Positions 12,770 through 44,722 of a stretch of DNA of 64,000 bases are shown one piece after another. The translations under genes were made by a program, and so were the position numbers. The stretch lies in assembly GCA_003223455.1 (NCBI GenBank), contig QHVE01000013.1, positions 1-64,000 on the forward strand, written 5' to 3'. Below the pieces are notes generated by a model, which saw only the letters and a list, made by a program, of their open reading frames with translations, searched no databases and was not told where the DNA came from. The DNA is from Gemmatimonadota bacterium. GTDB lineage: Bacteria > Gemmatimonadota > Gemmatimonadetes > Gemmatimonadales > Gemmatimonadaceae. Within the stretch, counting starts at the first letter, position 1. Each line of letters starts with the position of its first letter.

Positions 12770-12970
12770 GTTGGGAACCAGAGAACTGGTGAACCAGGGA
12801 GTTAGTGAGTTGGGTAGCTGGTTAGCTGGTCGGTTGATTGGTGAGTTGAACTGCACGGGCCACTCAACCGGCGTACGACTCCACGTGGCGGCTCCACGCG
12901 GGTTGTGGCCGGGCCGTTCAGTTCACTAGTTCACCGACCAACTCACTAGCGATCCAATTCACCAACTCAC
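12770..12970. repeat. Octamer-repeat element, copy A (inside the pdh operon)
   Basis: The left arm (12770-12851) is made of degenerate TGAGTTGG/AGCTGGTT units. The right arm (12918-12969) has the complementary CCAACTCA units. A GC-rich centre lies between them, so the whole is a large imperfect inverted repeat. The 25 bases at 12921-12945 are identical to 37256-37280 in copy B. The right arm ends within a few bases of the pdhA stop codon. No ORF is supported in this stretch. Confidence 0.8.
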
Positions 12971-12972
12971 CC

Positions 12973-14004
<1,032 letters not shown>

Positions 14005-14024
14005 GGCGTAACTGCTCGGTGTGG

Positions 14025-14045
14025 AGTGGGGAGTGGGGAGTGGGA
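14025..14045. repeat. Short heptamer tandem repeat upstream of pdhA
   Basis: Three consecutive 7-bp units (AGTGGGG, AGTGGGG, AGTGGGA) lie between lipA and pdhA, 20-40 bases before the pdhA start. On the sense strand they read as CCCCACT units. The tract would sit in the pdhA leader. Confidence 0.7.
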
Positions 14046-14113
14046 AGTCTGAAGCCACGGAGTCTCGAGGGGCGTTGGCGTCACCCTCGACCTCCGATGC
14101 CCCACCGCGGTTT

Positions 14114-16439: not shown

Positions 16440-16664
16440 ATGCTGCGCACCATCTTCATGATCGGCCTGTTCGCCATCGGCGGGCTGTTCGTCCTCAAAA
16501 TCGCGTTCGGGCTGTTCGGCGTCGCGCTCGGCATCTTCGGCGTGCTGCTCGCGCTGGCGATCAAAGTGTTGATCATCGGAGGGTTGATCTATCTGGTGAT
16601 CAGGATTTTCTCTCCGGATACGGCGAGACGGTTGAGGCAGAAGTGGTCAGGGAGTTCCTACTGA
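16440..16664 (+). CDS. Small hydrophobic membrane protein of unknown function
   Basis: A 74-residue protein beginning MLRTIFMIGLFAIGGLF at ATG 16440, with GGGAGAC as a well placed Shine-Dalgarno; an earlier in-frame ATG at 16323 lacks one. Nearly all of residues 4-57 is hydrophobic, enough for two membrane helices (about 5-25 and 31-57), followed by a basic tail (DTARRLRQKWSGSSY). No family was recognised. The gene is divergent from thiO, ends at the start of a GGTACC-rich repeat, and is followed by a strong intrinsic terminator at 16776-16813. Confidence 0.7.
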   Translation: MLRTIFMIGLFAIGGLFVLKIAFGLFGVALGIFGVLLALAIKVLIIGGLIYLVIRIFSPDTARRLRQKWSGSSY

Positions 16665-16720
16665 ACTGCCACCGCGCGTACTCGGTACCACCGACGTAGC
16701 TGTACCCGGTACCGGTTGGA
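16661..16720. repeat. GGTACC-rich inverted repeat, left copy
   Basis: This segment contains GTACTCGGTACC, GACGTAG and ACCCGGTACCGG. Its reverse complement recurs at 16981-17040 with most positions matching, so the two are inverted copies of about 50 bp flanking the four-helix-bundle ORF. It begins at the stop codon of the small membrane gene. Confidence 0.75.
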
Positions 16721-16775
16721 GGCTCCCGGAGATCGGGGATGCCCCACGCTTCGGAATGGTTTCAGCCGCGTTGAC

Positions 16776-16813
16776 AAGGTGCGCGCCTTCATCGAAAGGC
16801 GCGCACCTTTTTC
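16776..16813 (+). terminator. Intrinsic terminator after the small membrane gene
   Basis: A perfect 14-bp stem (16776-16789 with 16796-16809) around a 6-base loop, rich in GC (GGTGCGCGCC), ends in a run of five T at 16808-16812. It points along the plus strand and should stop transcripts from the gene at 16440. It sits 4 bases before the ATG of the next ORF, so that ORF would not be reached by read-through. Confidence 0.85.
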
Positions 16814-16816
16814 TTG

Positions 16817-17047
16817 ATGCACGACTTTCGAAGGCTCGAAGTCTGGCGTCGAGCGCTGGCATTGGCGATCGCGAGCGAACGAGAGAGCCGCCGCTTTCCT
16901 CGCTCGGATCATGGGGTGATCGCAGCTCAGCTCCGCCGTGCCGCGCTCTCGATCCCTGCGAACATCGCCGAAGGGAGCGTCCAGCCGGTACCGGGTGCCT
17001 GCTACGTCAGTCGTACCGAGTACTTCAGTGGTTGTCCAGCTCCGTGA
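16817..17047 (+). pseudogene. Truncated four-helix-bundle (S23/TIGR02436-type) protein
   Basis: The first 55 or so residues (MHDFRRLEVWRRALALAI ... RRAALSIPANIAEGS) match the N-terminal half of the four-helix-bundle family found in 23S rRNA intervening sequences and as avd genes of diversity-generating retroelements. After NIAEGS the family normally continues for 50-60 residues with a second pair of helices. Here the frame runs instead into the right-hand GGTACC repeat and encodes an unrelated tail (VQPVPGACYVSRTEYF). A terminator ends 4 bases before the ATG and no promoter or Shine-Dalgarno is evident. I read it as a remnant cut by the repeat. No reverse transcriptase or rRNA is nearby. Confidence 0.7.
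16981..17040. repeat. GGTACC-rich inverted repeat, right copy
   Basis: Contains CCGGTACCGGGTGCC, GCTACGTCAG and GTACCGAGTAC, the inverted counterpart of 16661-16720. It overlaps the truncated end of the four-helix-bundle ORF and the last codons and stop (17025-17027) of the minus-strand gene that follows. Confidence 0.75.
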
Positions 17048-17930
17048 CTACCGCCCACACGAGCATCGGCACCATGATCTCATGATGCCCCGTGATCTCG
17101 TAGCCTTTCCCGCTGTGCAGCGTGGGGCGCTGGACGACGTTCATGCGCGGGCGGTAGTGGCGCTGCATGTCGAGGTCGACGCTCGTGAAGTGCTCGGGCT
17201 TGCCGCCGCCGAGGTTGCGGGCGATCGTGAGCGCCTTGAGGAACACCTCCGGCATGATCACGGCGCTGCCGAGGTTGAGCACGACGCCGCCGTCGTCGAG
17301 GCGGGGCAGCGAGCCGGCGAGTCGACGGAAGTCGCGGTGGCTGGTGTCGCCGATCGCCGCGCCGTTCGCCGCCGGGTGCTGGTGGATGATCTCGGCACCG
17401 AGGGCCGCGTGGACCGTGAGCGGGATGCGATGACGACGCGCGGCGAGCAGGAGTGAGAGCTCCGGATTGGCGAGCGTGGACTGCTGCTCCAGCTCGCGAC
17501 CGAGGCACTCGCCCATGCCGAGGGCGTCGCGCATCCCTGCGACGAAGGCCTCGTTCATCTCGCGTCCCGTCTCCTCGGCCATGCCGAAGGTGCCATCCCT
17601 GAGACCGGCGGCGACGTCTTCGGACGTCGCGCCGAAGCGTGCGACCTCGTAGTCGTGGATCGCGGCGGAGCCGTTCATCGCGACGTGCGTGAGGATGCCG
17701 CGGCGCATCAGCTCGATGAGCACGGGGGCGAGACCGGTCTTCACGACGTGGCCGCCGAGCATGACGACGACGCCCCGCGCGCGGCGGGCCGCATCGGCGA
17801 CCGCGCCGACGACGGCGCGAAAGTCCCGCGCGACGAGCACGTCGGGGAGCGCGTGGAGGAAGGCGCGGAACGAACGGTCGTCCGCGGGCGGCTGCGCGAA
17901 GTCGCGCGCGCTCACCTTGTTCTCGCGCAC
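17025..17930 (-). CDS. Conserved protein of unknown function, possibly deoxyhypusine-synthase-like fold
   Basis: A 301-residue protein from GTG 17930 (MRENKVSARDFAQPP). Striking conserved-looking blocks are GVVVMLGGHVVKTGLAPVLI, NGSAAIHDYEVARFGATSED, TVHAALGAEIIHQHPAANG and VVLNLGSAVIMPEVFLKAL, followed by HYRPRMNVVQRP and GYEITGHHEIMVPML. Glycine-rich nucleotide-binding-like turns and several histidines suggest an enzyme. I have seen this kind of sequence in bacterial proteins loosely related to deoxyhypusine synthase, but no catalytic lysine can be assigned, so no function is claimed. It lies 65 bases after the DUF3108 gene in the same direction, and may be third in an operon with it and the glycosyltransferase. 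Its last codons lie in a repeat. Confidence 0.75.
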   Translation of the reverse strand: MRENKVSARDFAQPPADDRSFRAFLHALPDVLVARDFRAVVGAVADAARRARGVVVMLGGHVVKTGLAPVLIELMRRGILTHVAMNGSAAIHDYEVARFGATSEDVAAGLRDGTFGMAEETGREMNEAFVAGMRDALGMGECLGRELEQQSTLANPELSLLLAARRHRIPLTVHAALGAEIIHQHPAANGAAIGDTSHRDFRRLAGSLPRLDDGGVVLNLGSAVIMPEVFLKALTIARNLGGGKPEHFTSVDLDMQRHYRPRMNVVQRPTLHSGKGYEITGHHEIMVPMLVWAVVTELDNH

Positions 17931-37119: not shown

Positions 37120-37130
37120 CGCTGCGGCGG

Positions 37131-37371
37131 TGAGTTGGTGAGTTGGTTGGTTGGTGAGCTGGTTGGTTGATCGGTGAGTTGAACGGCCCTGGCTACGAAC
37201 CAGGGTGGAGACCCCTCAGCGGGGCTTCCATGCCGGTTGTAGACAGGGCCGTTCCGTTCACTAGTTCACCGACCAACTCACCAACTCACCAACTCACCAA
37301 CTCACCAACTCACCAACTCACCAACTCACCAACTCACCAACTCACCAACTCACCAACTCACAACTCACCCG
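37131..37371. repeat. Octamer-repeat element, copy B, with 11 perfect CCAACTCA units
   Basis: The left arm (37131-37184) is GAGTTGGT-like. A GC-rich centre with internal hairpins (GGCCCTGG ... CCAGGG; CCCCTCAGCGGGG) leads to a 25-base stretch (37256-37280) identical to copy A. The right arm is an uninterrupted tract of eleven CCAACTCA octamers (37273-37360). It fills the gap between the convergent gcvP and gcvH genes, and the gcvH stop (37365-37367) lies in its last unit. Perfect 8-bp repeats are prone to slippage. Confidence 0.9.
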
Positions 37372-38629: not shown

Positions 38630-39229
38630 ATGGATATCGACGAAGGCATCGACGACGCCGCAGGCGTCGAGCAGTACGCGGCGCTGGTCCAGGAGCAGCT
38701 CGAGCTCGTCGGTGAGGATTCGTCGCGCGAGGGGCTGCTGCGGACCCCCGAGCGCGTCGCGAAAGCGATGCAGTTCCTCACGAGGGGCTACCGGCTTCGC
38801 GTGGAGGACGTGGTCGGTACAGGGATCTTCGCCGAAGAGCATCGGAACATGGTGATGGTGCGCGACATCGAGCTCTATTCGCTTTGCGAGCACCACATGC
38901 TCCCATTCTTCGGTCGCGCGCACGTGGCCTACATCCCGGATGGCCGGATCGTGGGACTCTCCAAGCTCCCGCGCATCGTCGACGTCTTCGCCCGCCGGCT
39001 CCAGGTGCAGGAGCGTCTCACCGAAGAGATCGCCGGGGCGATCGACGACGTGCTCGCCCCCCTCGGCGTGGGCGTCGTCATCGAGGCCTACCACCTCTGC
39101 ATGATGATGCGCGGGGTGGAGAAGCAGAACTCCCGCACGATCACCTCGGCGCTCCGAGGGGTGTTCCGGGATGATGCGCGGACGAGAGAGGAGTTCCTGT
39201 CGTTGGCGCATGCGAAGCTTGCCGTTTGA
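38630..39229 (+). CDS. folE: GTP cyclohydrolase I (first copy)
   Basis: Converts GTP to dihydroneopterin triphosphate. The 199-residue protein has the zinc ligands in [12 protein letters not shown] (Cys86, His88, His89) and [10 protein letters not shown] (Cys157), [15 protein letters not shown] near 34 and the C-terminal [15 protein letters not shown] second copy, clearly homologous throughout, is at 57628. This one stands alone beside tdk and coaE, so it likely serves folate synthesis, while the second serves the pterin operon. The stop sits inside a small hairpin (GCCGTT/AACGGC, 39221-39234). Confidence 0.96.
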
Positions 39230-39282
39230 ACGGCAACAGCGAGTACCCGGTACAACCGAACTCGCTGTGGCAGTTCAGCTAG
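39221..39282. repeat. GGTACC-family palindromic element, third site
   Basis: Between the convergent folE and tdk genes lies a hairpin with an 8-bp perfect stem (CAGCGAGT 39237-39244, ACTCGCTG 39260-39267) around ACCCGGTAC. The reverse complement contains GAACTGCCAC, as at 16663-16672, and GGTAC elements shared with the pair near 16.7 and 17.0 kb. It may also act as a bidirectional terminator, although T-tracts are lacking. Confidence 0.6.
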
Positions 39283-43626: not shown

Positions 43627-44631
43627 TCGAGTCCTAGAGGCGACCCAGCACTGGACGTCCGCACGGTGAGGCGGCAGCTGGCTGCGCTCCTTCCGGACGC
43701 ACGTCCCACCAGTGAAGGAGAGGGGGCGCTGGAGCTCGCGTCCTCGAGAGTAGACGCCCCCCGGCTGATCAGCGCAACGGTTTTGGAGGGGTCCGGCCCG
43801 CTAAGAGCCCGAAGGGTCTTTCAGGCGGCCGTCGCGGGATTTCGCGGGTTCCTCGACGGTACCCAGCGGAGCCTCGTGGCCGGCTATCTGGCGGGGGGCG
43901 CACCCATCGTCGTGGGGCGGGCAGCCGCCGTCATCCGGGAACGGCGAAATCGGCGCATGCACACCTGGGGCGCACCTCTGGTCGAGATGCGCCTGTACGC
44001 CCCGCACGGTCTCGCAACGCCCACCGAATGGGATGCGCTGCGGCAGATCGCCGGACATCAGCTGGTGGACATCAGCGCCAGGGAGGGGGAGATCGATGGC
44101 GAGCACCCGCTGGCCCTTCGCGACGCCGCGTTCCACCGCGTCCAGGCGCATCGCGAGGCTCTGGAGCAGCGGCTGGCCGAACGGTGGTGCTCCACCGAGC
44201 ACGACCGCCTATTCATCGATGGAGGGATCAGCGGCAGCGACACGGTCGCCGTCTCGTCGTGCACGGTCGGCGTCGTGAAGAGCCACCGAACTCTCTACGC
44301 CGAAGGCGTAGCGCTGCAGACGATCCTCGGCCTTGGCCGTAGCGAACGGTCAAGCGTGTTCGAGGTCACCTCTCCTCGGCGCACGACGGTGGCGAGCTGG
44401 TACCTCCGGCTGCGCGATCCCATGGGGCGGGATCCGATGTGGGGACTCGTACGCGTCGAGATCGCGCGCCCCGATCCCGCCGAGCGGCACGCGATCGGCG
44501 ACCGCGCCGACGAGGTCTCGCGCTGGATCCTCGCCGAAGCGAGCCCGCTCGCCTTGCCGGACGCGCGGTGGGACAAGATGGTGTACGGGATTCGGGACTG
44601 TGAGGAGTTCTTGAGAGCAGTGACTCAGTGA
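43621..44631 (+). CDS. nurA: NurA-like 5'-3' nuclease
   Basis: A 336-residue protein from ATG 43621. Two NurA landmarks are visible: the first acidic site FRGFLDGTQRSLVAGYL (Asp79) with PIVVGRAAAVIRERRNRR after it, and a later LFIDGGISGSD (Asp200) followed by VGVVKSHRTLY and SSVFEVTSPRRTTVASWYLRL, the typical NurA core. In archaea, NurA is the nuclease partner of the HerA motor in end resection. HerA follows 91 bases downstream. A GTG at 43663 is an alternative start that would not overlap the divergent gene. Its last three codons and stop lie in a repeat of GTGACTCA units. Confidence 0.85.
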   Translation: MHSSPRGDPALDVRTVRRQLAALLPDARPTSEGEGALELASSRVDAPRLISATVLEGSGPLRARRVFQAAVAGFRGFLDGTQRSLVAGYLAGGAPIVVGRAAAVIRERRNRRMHTWGAPLVEMRLYAPHGLATPTEWDALRQIAGHQLVDISAREGEIDGEHPLALRDAAFHRVQAHREALEQRLAERWCSTEHDRLFIDGGISGSDTVAVSSCTVGVVKSHRTLYAEGVALQTILGLGRSERSSVFEVTSPRRTTVASWYLRLRDPMGRDPMWGLVRVEIARPDPAERHAIGDRADEVSRWILAEASPLALPDARWDKMVYGIRDCEEFLRAVTQ

Positions 44632-44716
44632 CTCAGTGACTCAGTGACCTCACCAACCCACCGATCAACCGACCAGCTCACCAACTCACCAGCTCACCAG
44701 CTCACCAACTCACCGC
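44620..44716. repeat. Octamer-repeat tract, copy C, between nurA and herA
   Basis: Three GTGACTCA units (44620-44643) start in the last nurA codons, then degenerate CTCACCAA/CAGCTCAC units run to 44716, 6 bases before the herA start. Only the right-arm orientation (CCAACTCA) is present, so this is a half copy of the element at 12.8 and 37.2 kb. It leaves no evident Shine-Dalgarno for herA. Confidence 0.8.
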
Positions 44717-44722
44717 AGTCTG

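Follow-up and report, generated by a model that had tools for sequence, protein, structure and literature searches.

Why should part of a gene for a small helical protein lie between two inverted copies of a repeat, with a protein gene to either side? This question is raised by a locus (16661-17047) in the window, by which we mean the whole stretch of 64,000 nucleotides of Gemmatimonadota DNA that was analysed, where two arms of about 68 bp in opposite orientation surround about 240 bp containing the 5' half of a four-helix-bundle (4HB; S23p/IVP) gene (Table 1). As set out below, the element is a hairpin-shaped repeat with a gene for a small helical protein inside it, in a copy that has decayed.

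The window element and its truncated gene

The two arms pair in two blocks, 16704-16727 with 16973-16996 (92% complementary) and 16678-16700 with 17001-17023 (91%), and the fragment between them matches both PF05635 (E 8.9e-12, profile positions 2-50 of 106) and TIGR02436 (positions 1-46 of 109, above the curated cut-off). These results bear out the original prediction that inverted GGTACC copies bracket a 4HB fragment, with the correction that the copies, inverted as stated, are longer than the 50 bp first given. At its TGAACTGCC the left arm shares bases with the stop codon of a membrane-protein gene lying upstream, and the right arm has lost its outer end at CAGTGG, within the end of a deoxyhypusine-synthase-like gene. 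The start codon of the fragment is probably ATG 16817. It was also correctly seen that repeat replaces the missing half of the gene, the profile match ending at TIGR02436 position 46 and the reading frame continuing into the right arm, to 17047. The RNA fold calculated for 16655-17050 has an energy of -219.9 kcal/mol, against a mean of -157.3 for shuffled sequences (z -9.97).

Table 1. Hairpin repeats, their arms and the gene fragment located in the window.
Feature	Position	Strand	Basis
Family A palindrome without a gene, arms of GTGAGTTG	12798-12972		
Left arm, palindromic repeat family B (GGTACC type)	16662-16731	+	Repeat search, inverted pairing, arm profile
Perfect 14-bp hairpin and T run, terminator-like, directly before the 4HB start codon	16776-16809		Inverted-repeat scan, RNA fold
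5' half of 4HB (S23p/IVP) gene	16817-16978	+	ORF list, TIGR02436 and PF05635 profiles
GGGAGC common to gene and arm, proposed deletion junction	16973-16978		Sequence
Right arm, inverted copy	16973-17034	-	Inverted pairing, arm profile
Gene-less family A unit: G-arm (37129-37177), core with its own hairpin, C-arm (37266-37369)	37129-37369		
Shortened family B hairpin, outer ends only	39227-39277		Inverted-repeat scan, arm profile
Unpaired family A C-arm array (ACCAACTC), beside 8-nt array CAGTGACT (both within 44618-44718)	44645-44718	-	

The consensus of the arm inner end, CCGGGAGCGTCC, contains GGGAGC, and the GAA GGG AGC of the gene (codons of NIAEGS) coincides with the start of the arm inner end GGGAGCGTCC, while the usual inner start of the arm, TTCC, is absent in the right arm. 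We propose that the gene is truncated because of a deletion between two GGGAGC copies, one in the gene and one in the inner end of the arm, which would be the simplest account of the missing half. Cutting of the gene by a transposon end was considered and is not needed, since such a deletion suffices.

The two genes flanking the element stay adjacent in eight other genomes of the genus. The intergenic gap is about 20-120 bp in seven of them, which is too short for a 4HB gene, and about 400 bp in the eighth (L223). A 4HB gene standing at the same locus in relatives without the repeats would have spoken against the original prediction; none was seen in the relatives of the genus with adjacent neighbour genes, the gap being too short for one in seven of the eight. 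At the orthologous site G061 has a plain hairpin and G013 and G064 have other gene-less palindromes, and that of G013 aligns to both flanks of the 4HB gene of the same genome (L102). Comparison of the window copy with the element-free site of G061 revealed no target-site duplication; both outer ends overlap neighbouring stop codons. In L221 and L222, which come from two further species of the genus, the same intergenic site (~1380-1530) is occupied by differing palindromes without a gene.

Repeat families with and without a gene

The arms belong to a palindromic repeat of ~195 bp, family B, with about ten gene-less copies in the same genome (G000). The ten fuller gene-less copies measure ~190-209 bp, with similar arms and a core of ~60 bp, and in the window copy this core is replaced by the 14-bp hairpin and the first half of the 4HB gene. 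Further paired repeats, for which a search had been suggested, are plentiful: a 400-bp query from the window gave 22 further arm matches on other contigs of G000 at E<0.08, some of them one site found on both strands, and an arm profile gave 36 arm matches (25 loci and the window, the window feature being counted twice, as the window and as L001). The shortened hairpin that had been picked out as a third related copy scores as a short family B member in this profile. The only gene-carrying family B copy found is the broken one in the window, no gene other than 4HB was found between the arms among the copies read, and the family was detected in 0/9 other genomes of the genus at E<=0.001. The window feature is probably a 'master' copy, now decayed, of a small hairpin element with the order arm, 4HB gene, inverted arm. 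The core of another family B unit (L017, 1320-1564) has a further long hairpin of its own, which gives the look of a hairpin within a hairpin.

The other 4HB genes of the genome have similar surroundings in most cases. Inverted repeats, of quite different sequences, enclose the intact loci L031 and L032, a second fragment (L033, 1473-1637, profile positions 31-70) is closely bracketed by 22-nt inverted repeats, and the divergent locus L035 has no enclosing inverted repeats. L031 is a gene-carrying copy of family A, with the same arms. The (GTGAGTTG)3 pattern of this family occurs at 39 forward and 63 reverse sites in the genome (0 + 0 for the reversed control), and among 33 of its gene-less loci that were inspected 28 present a G-arm followed by a C-arm within 200 bp, none is divergent only, and five are unpaired; most have a common core with its own hairpin. 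L032, whose best PDB match is XCC0516 (2GSC, E 1.5e-19), lies within family C (TTTGTGG), for which other arrays gave 23 and 25 sites with a non-zero reversed-pattern control of 2 and 10. Arrays of TTTGTGG were noted on contigs C117, C118 and C120 of G000, and some of them form closely spaced inverted pairs. The window also has a short heptamer array, GTGGGGA (14019-14048, 4.3 copies), outside the recognised palindromes.

If the gene sustains its repeats, the state of the two might be related. Nearest-neighbour identity has a mean of 0.781 and a maximum of 0.800 among ten copies of family B, and a mean of 0.835 and a maximum of 0.902 among 23 copies of family A, and only 0.45% of 10-copy subsamples of family A have a mean as low as that of family B. 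Family B, with its broken gene, therefore looks older than family A, although the differing sequence make-up of the families could also explain these values.

Flanks of four-helix-bundle genes

Having seen inverted repeats around further 4HB genes in G000, we tested flanks across the bacterial family by scoring the 450 bp upstream of each gene against the reverse complement of the 450 bp downstream. The set consisted of 74 4HB loci, namely five from G000, the best match of each further genome given a locus (29), and 40 hand-picked down the match list; five at contig edges were dropped, leaving 69 with full flanks. The inverted-flank score was at least 40 at 59 of the 69 loci, compared with 6/69 for same-locus direct flanks and 35/4692 for cross-locus pairs, this cut-off having been set after seeing an initial control, with cut-offs from 30 to 60 also computed. 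When random positions with a gene-sized gap were scored, 0-0.6% of the 753-940 taken per genome reached the cut-off in a set of eight genomes; the window gave 1.3% of 628. Ten loci fall below it (L104, L062, L060, L033, L079, L095, L037, L035, L064 and L098). These results are strong evidence that inverted arms enclose the majority of 4HB genes in this lineage.

For a multi-phylum comparison we took a named set. A query with a Xanthomonas protein at its head gave 572 relatives, of which the best 80 were used; nine of these at contig edges were dropped, leaving 71. By record title the set spans Proteobacteria, Bacteroidota, Nitrospira, Planctomycetota, Acidobacteriota, Chloroflexi and others. 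Within these best 80 of 572, the inverted score was at least 40 in 29/71 loci and at least 34 in 45/71, with direct controls of 9/71 and 12/71 and cross-locus controls of 1.4% and 3.0%, respectively. The pattern is present outside this lineage in a weaker form, with 45/71 at the lower cut-off of 34. The proposal of a REP-like unit carrying, or having cut, a 4HB gene can now be divided: carrying is the rule for the gene family (59/69 and 45/71), whereas for the cut gene a GGGAGC deletion is enough.

The arm sequences vary between loci, even within one genome. What they have in common is their make-up: most are tandem arrays with a unit of 7 nt, or at times 8 nt, and the arm on the 5' side is rich in G. 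Self-match at lag 7 is 0.544 in the family set and 0.594 in the named set, and at lags other than 7 and 14 it is mostly 0.22-0.31 (0.385 at lag 8 in the named set); G exceeds C in the upstream arm in 53/59 and 42/45 loci, respectively.

In at least three of the genomes sampled the arms also form a gene-less dispersed repeat, namely in G000, in Xanthomonas arboricola and in Oryzomonas japonica. GGGAATC has 248 + 251 sites in X. arboricola, and the arm repeat of O. japonica has 27 + 25 (controls 0 + 0 in both); each has one 4HB gene, which in X. arboricola is inside the GGGAATC repeat, and there several gene-less GGGAATC pairs have an inner AAAGCGG-like stretch in common with the gene copy. Between three Xanthomonas species the 4HB gene has a dN/dS of ~0.04-0.08, indicating purifying selection. 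The C-terminal part of the X. vasicola gene (L229) is out of frame.

Palindrome density (score >=44 per 100 kb, from 37-100 kb per genome) was compared between genomes with many and with no 4HB genes. The first eight genomes were only suggestive (0, 3, 0 and 3 units in 4HB-less against 2, 14, 6 and 2 in 4HB-rich genomes), and the comparison was then extended to 16. The densities were 0, 3.7, 0, 3.0, 2.0, 1.0, 0 and 13.9 in the eight 4HB-less genomes and 2.0, 15.7, 6.0, 2.3, 13.0, 21.6, 21.9 and 11.0 in the eight 4HB-rich ones, which are thus denser in palindromes (one-sided Mann-Whitney p 0.010, uncorrected for kinship). That 4HB-less genomes still have some palindromes, one of them at the 13.9 given above, counts against a link. 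Among paralogues within one genome, arm similarity showed no correlation with protein identity (rho 0.03, n 66), so that either the arms change fast or their inheritance is not simply tied to that of the gene; the only pair clearly with common arms is L042/L070, whose proteins are 96% identical.

Known systems and competing readings

The association of 4HB genes with inverted repeats is well supported, and its closest parallel is the REPIN/RAYT system, in which repeat doublets lie in hairpins, many of them gene-less, with one cognate gene and a separate repeat family for each gene (PMC3116915, in the part of the article available to us). The 4HB repeats are likewise dispersed inverted doublets forming hairpins, with many gene-less copies, and a repeat family is matched to one gene, here 4HB (families A and B, X. 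arboricola, O. japonica). They differ in that the gene is an S23p-family four-helix bundle instead of a Y1 transposase, the one Y1 gene of G000 having no family B arm in its locus, and in that the arms are longer, usually heptamer or octamer arrays, with the 4HB gene inside the hairpin.

The second parallel is the 23S rRNA intervening sequence (IVS) of Coxiella, where, in the portion of PMC4990558 accessible to us, terminal inverted repeats make a stem whose loop holds an S23p/PF05635 ORF. Directly upstream of that ORF stand tandem GACAGAT heptamers, two or three of them depending on the strain. These heptamers are a strong and unplanned match to the 4HB arm arrays. The window arms are terminal inverted repeats around an S23p ORF too, truncated in this copy. 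Unlike an IVS, the window element lies between protein genes and has related gene-less copies dispersed in the genome; a search of its locus (L001) against Rfam gave no match, and an rRNA IVS was therefore ruled out as its identity.

In Xanthomonas, 70 and 75 convergent pairs of GGGAATC repeats are described in two genomes, most repeats being transcribed, linked to G-quadruplexes and generally not associated with mobile elements (PMC4692102, as far as its accessible text goes). Our analysis finds this heptamer repeat bracketing the XCC0516-type 4HB gene; the main text of that article, in the same part, has no mention of four-helix, S23 or XCC0516. The Avd protein of diversity-generating retroelements is a homologous four-helix bundle (PMC10053308, accessible part), but the 4HB genes of G000 have no linked reverse transcriptase, PF00078 being absent from this genome, and a system of that type was ruled out. 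PF00078 was likewise absent from eight of nine other 4HB genomes, and thus found in 1/10. Eighteen genes of the 23S rRNA IVP family are reported from within cas loci, in many cases next to Cas4 or Cas6 (PMC3936711, accessible part).

In our best reading, the 4HB protein would be the repeat's own gene product in a partnership like that of REPINs and RAYTs, taking the place of the Y1 transposase, and we infer that it moves or maintains the repeats. The family forms pentamers (PMC4990558, same portion), and such a pentamer might bind its cognate arm hairpin as DNA or as RNA, the data fitting both alike, and recruit host enzymes to copy or protect it without PF00078 reverse transcriptase or Y1 transposase. 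Gene-carrying and gene-less hairpins would both be copied or kept up, the gene-less ones riding along, in a role comparable to that thought for RAYTs on REPINs, and loss of the second half of the window gene by the GGGAGC deletion would stop family B from spreading. The 23S rRNA IVSs might then be the same element residing in an rRNA hairpin. The 4HB family is not known to us to have a motif that would catalyse the cleavage of DNA or RNA, which counts against this explanation. So do the ten loci below the flank cut-off and the uncorrelated arms and proteins of paralogues, and the analysis revealed neither a movement event nor a target-site duplication. In its broadest form the proposal is a tentative one: S23p/IVP proteins could be the cognate genes of bacteria-wide heptamer-array hairpin repeats, each spreading or maintaining its own family without reverse transcriptase or Y1 transposase, with rRNA IVSs and the Xanthomonas GGGAATC repeats as two faces of one system.

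The association of 4HB genes with hairpin repeats is widespread, and we found no description of it in the open-access literature searched, preprints excluded. The proposal offers an origin for the heptamer repeats that bacterial genomes have long been known to contain in abundance. It would also give a role to XCC0516 (PDB 2GSC), a protein of solved structure but unexplained, and a reason for a protein gene in rRNA intervening sequences. If the proposal is true, this would be a second, independently invented REPIN-like system, with a protein without any recognised transposase fold.

Alternatively, 4HB could be a separate mobile or selfish gene that inserts into the loops of existing hairpins, intergenic palindromes as well as rRNA helices, with no role in the repeats. 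This would agree with the variation of arms between loci of one genome, with the gene of the window unit standing where gene-less units have their core, and with the position of IVSs in rRNA hairpin loops (PMC4990558, same portion). We consider it unlikely, since it does not account for arms in different phyla having a 7-nt period and a G-rich polarity, for the single 4HB gene matching a dispersed repeat in Xanthomonas and Oryzomonas, or for the difference in palindrome density. Less probable still is that the arms are a transcript stem for RNase III and 4HB an RNA-binding regulator or stabiliser, the repeats spreading by unrelated means such as slippage or REP-like dispersal. The strong RNA folds, the cleavage of the Coxiella IVS by RNase III at the heptamers (PMC4990558, same portion) and the transcription of most Xanthomonas repeats (PMC4692102, same part) would fit, but such a module does not explain why gene-less copies with similar cores are dispersed, or why copy age differs with gene integrity.

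An ordinary REP or MITE of a Y1 (RAYT) transposase, with the 4HB fragment caught by chance, is very improbable: G000 does have one Y1_Tnp gene (PF01797), the RAYT-like L036 (G000:C32:27136-27471), but an arm profile search found no family B arm in its locus, which disfavours the repeats as REPs of this resident transposase, and inverted repeats belonging to two further families enclose intact 4HB genes of the genome as well, in what is a general pattern. Short repeats translating as '..SDSLK..' surround L036 and may be that gene's own REPs.
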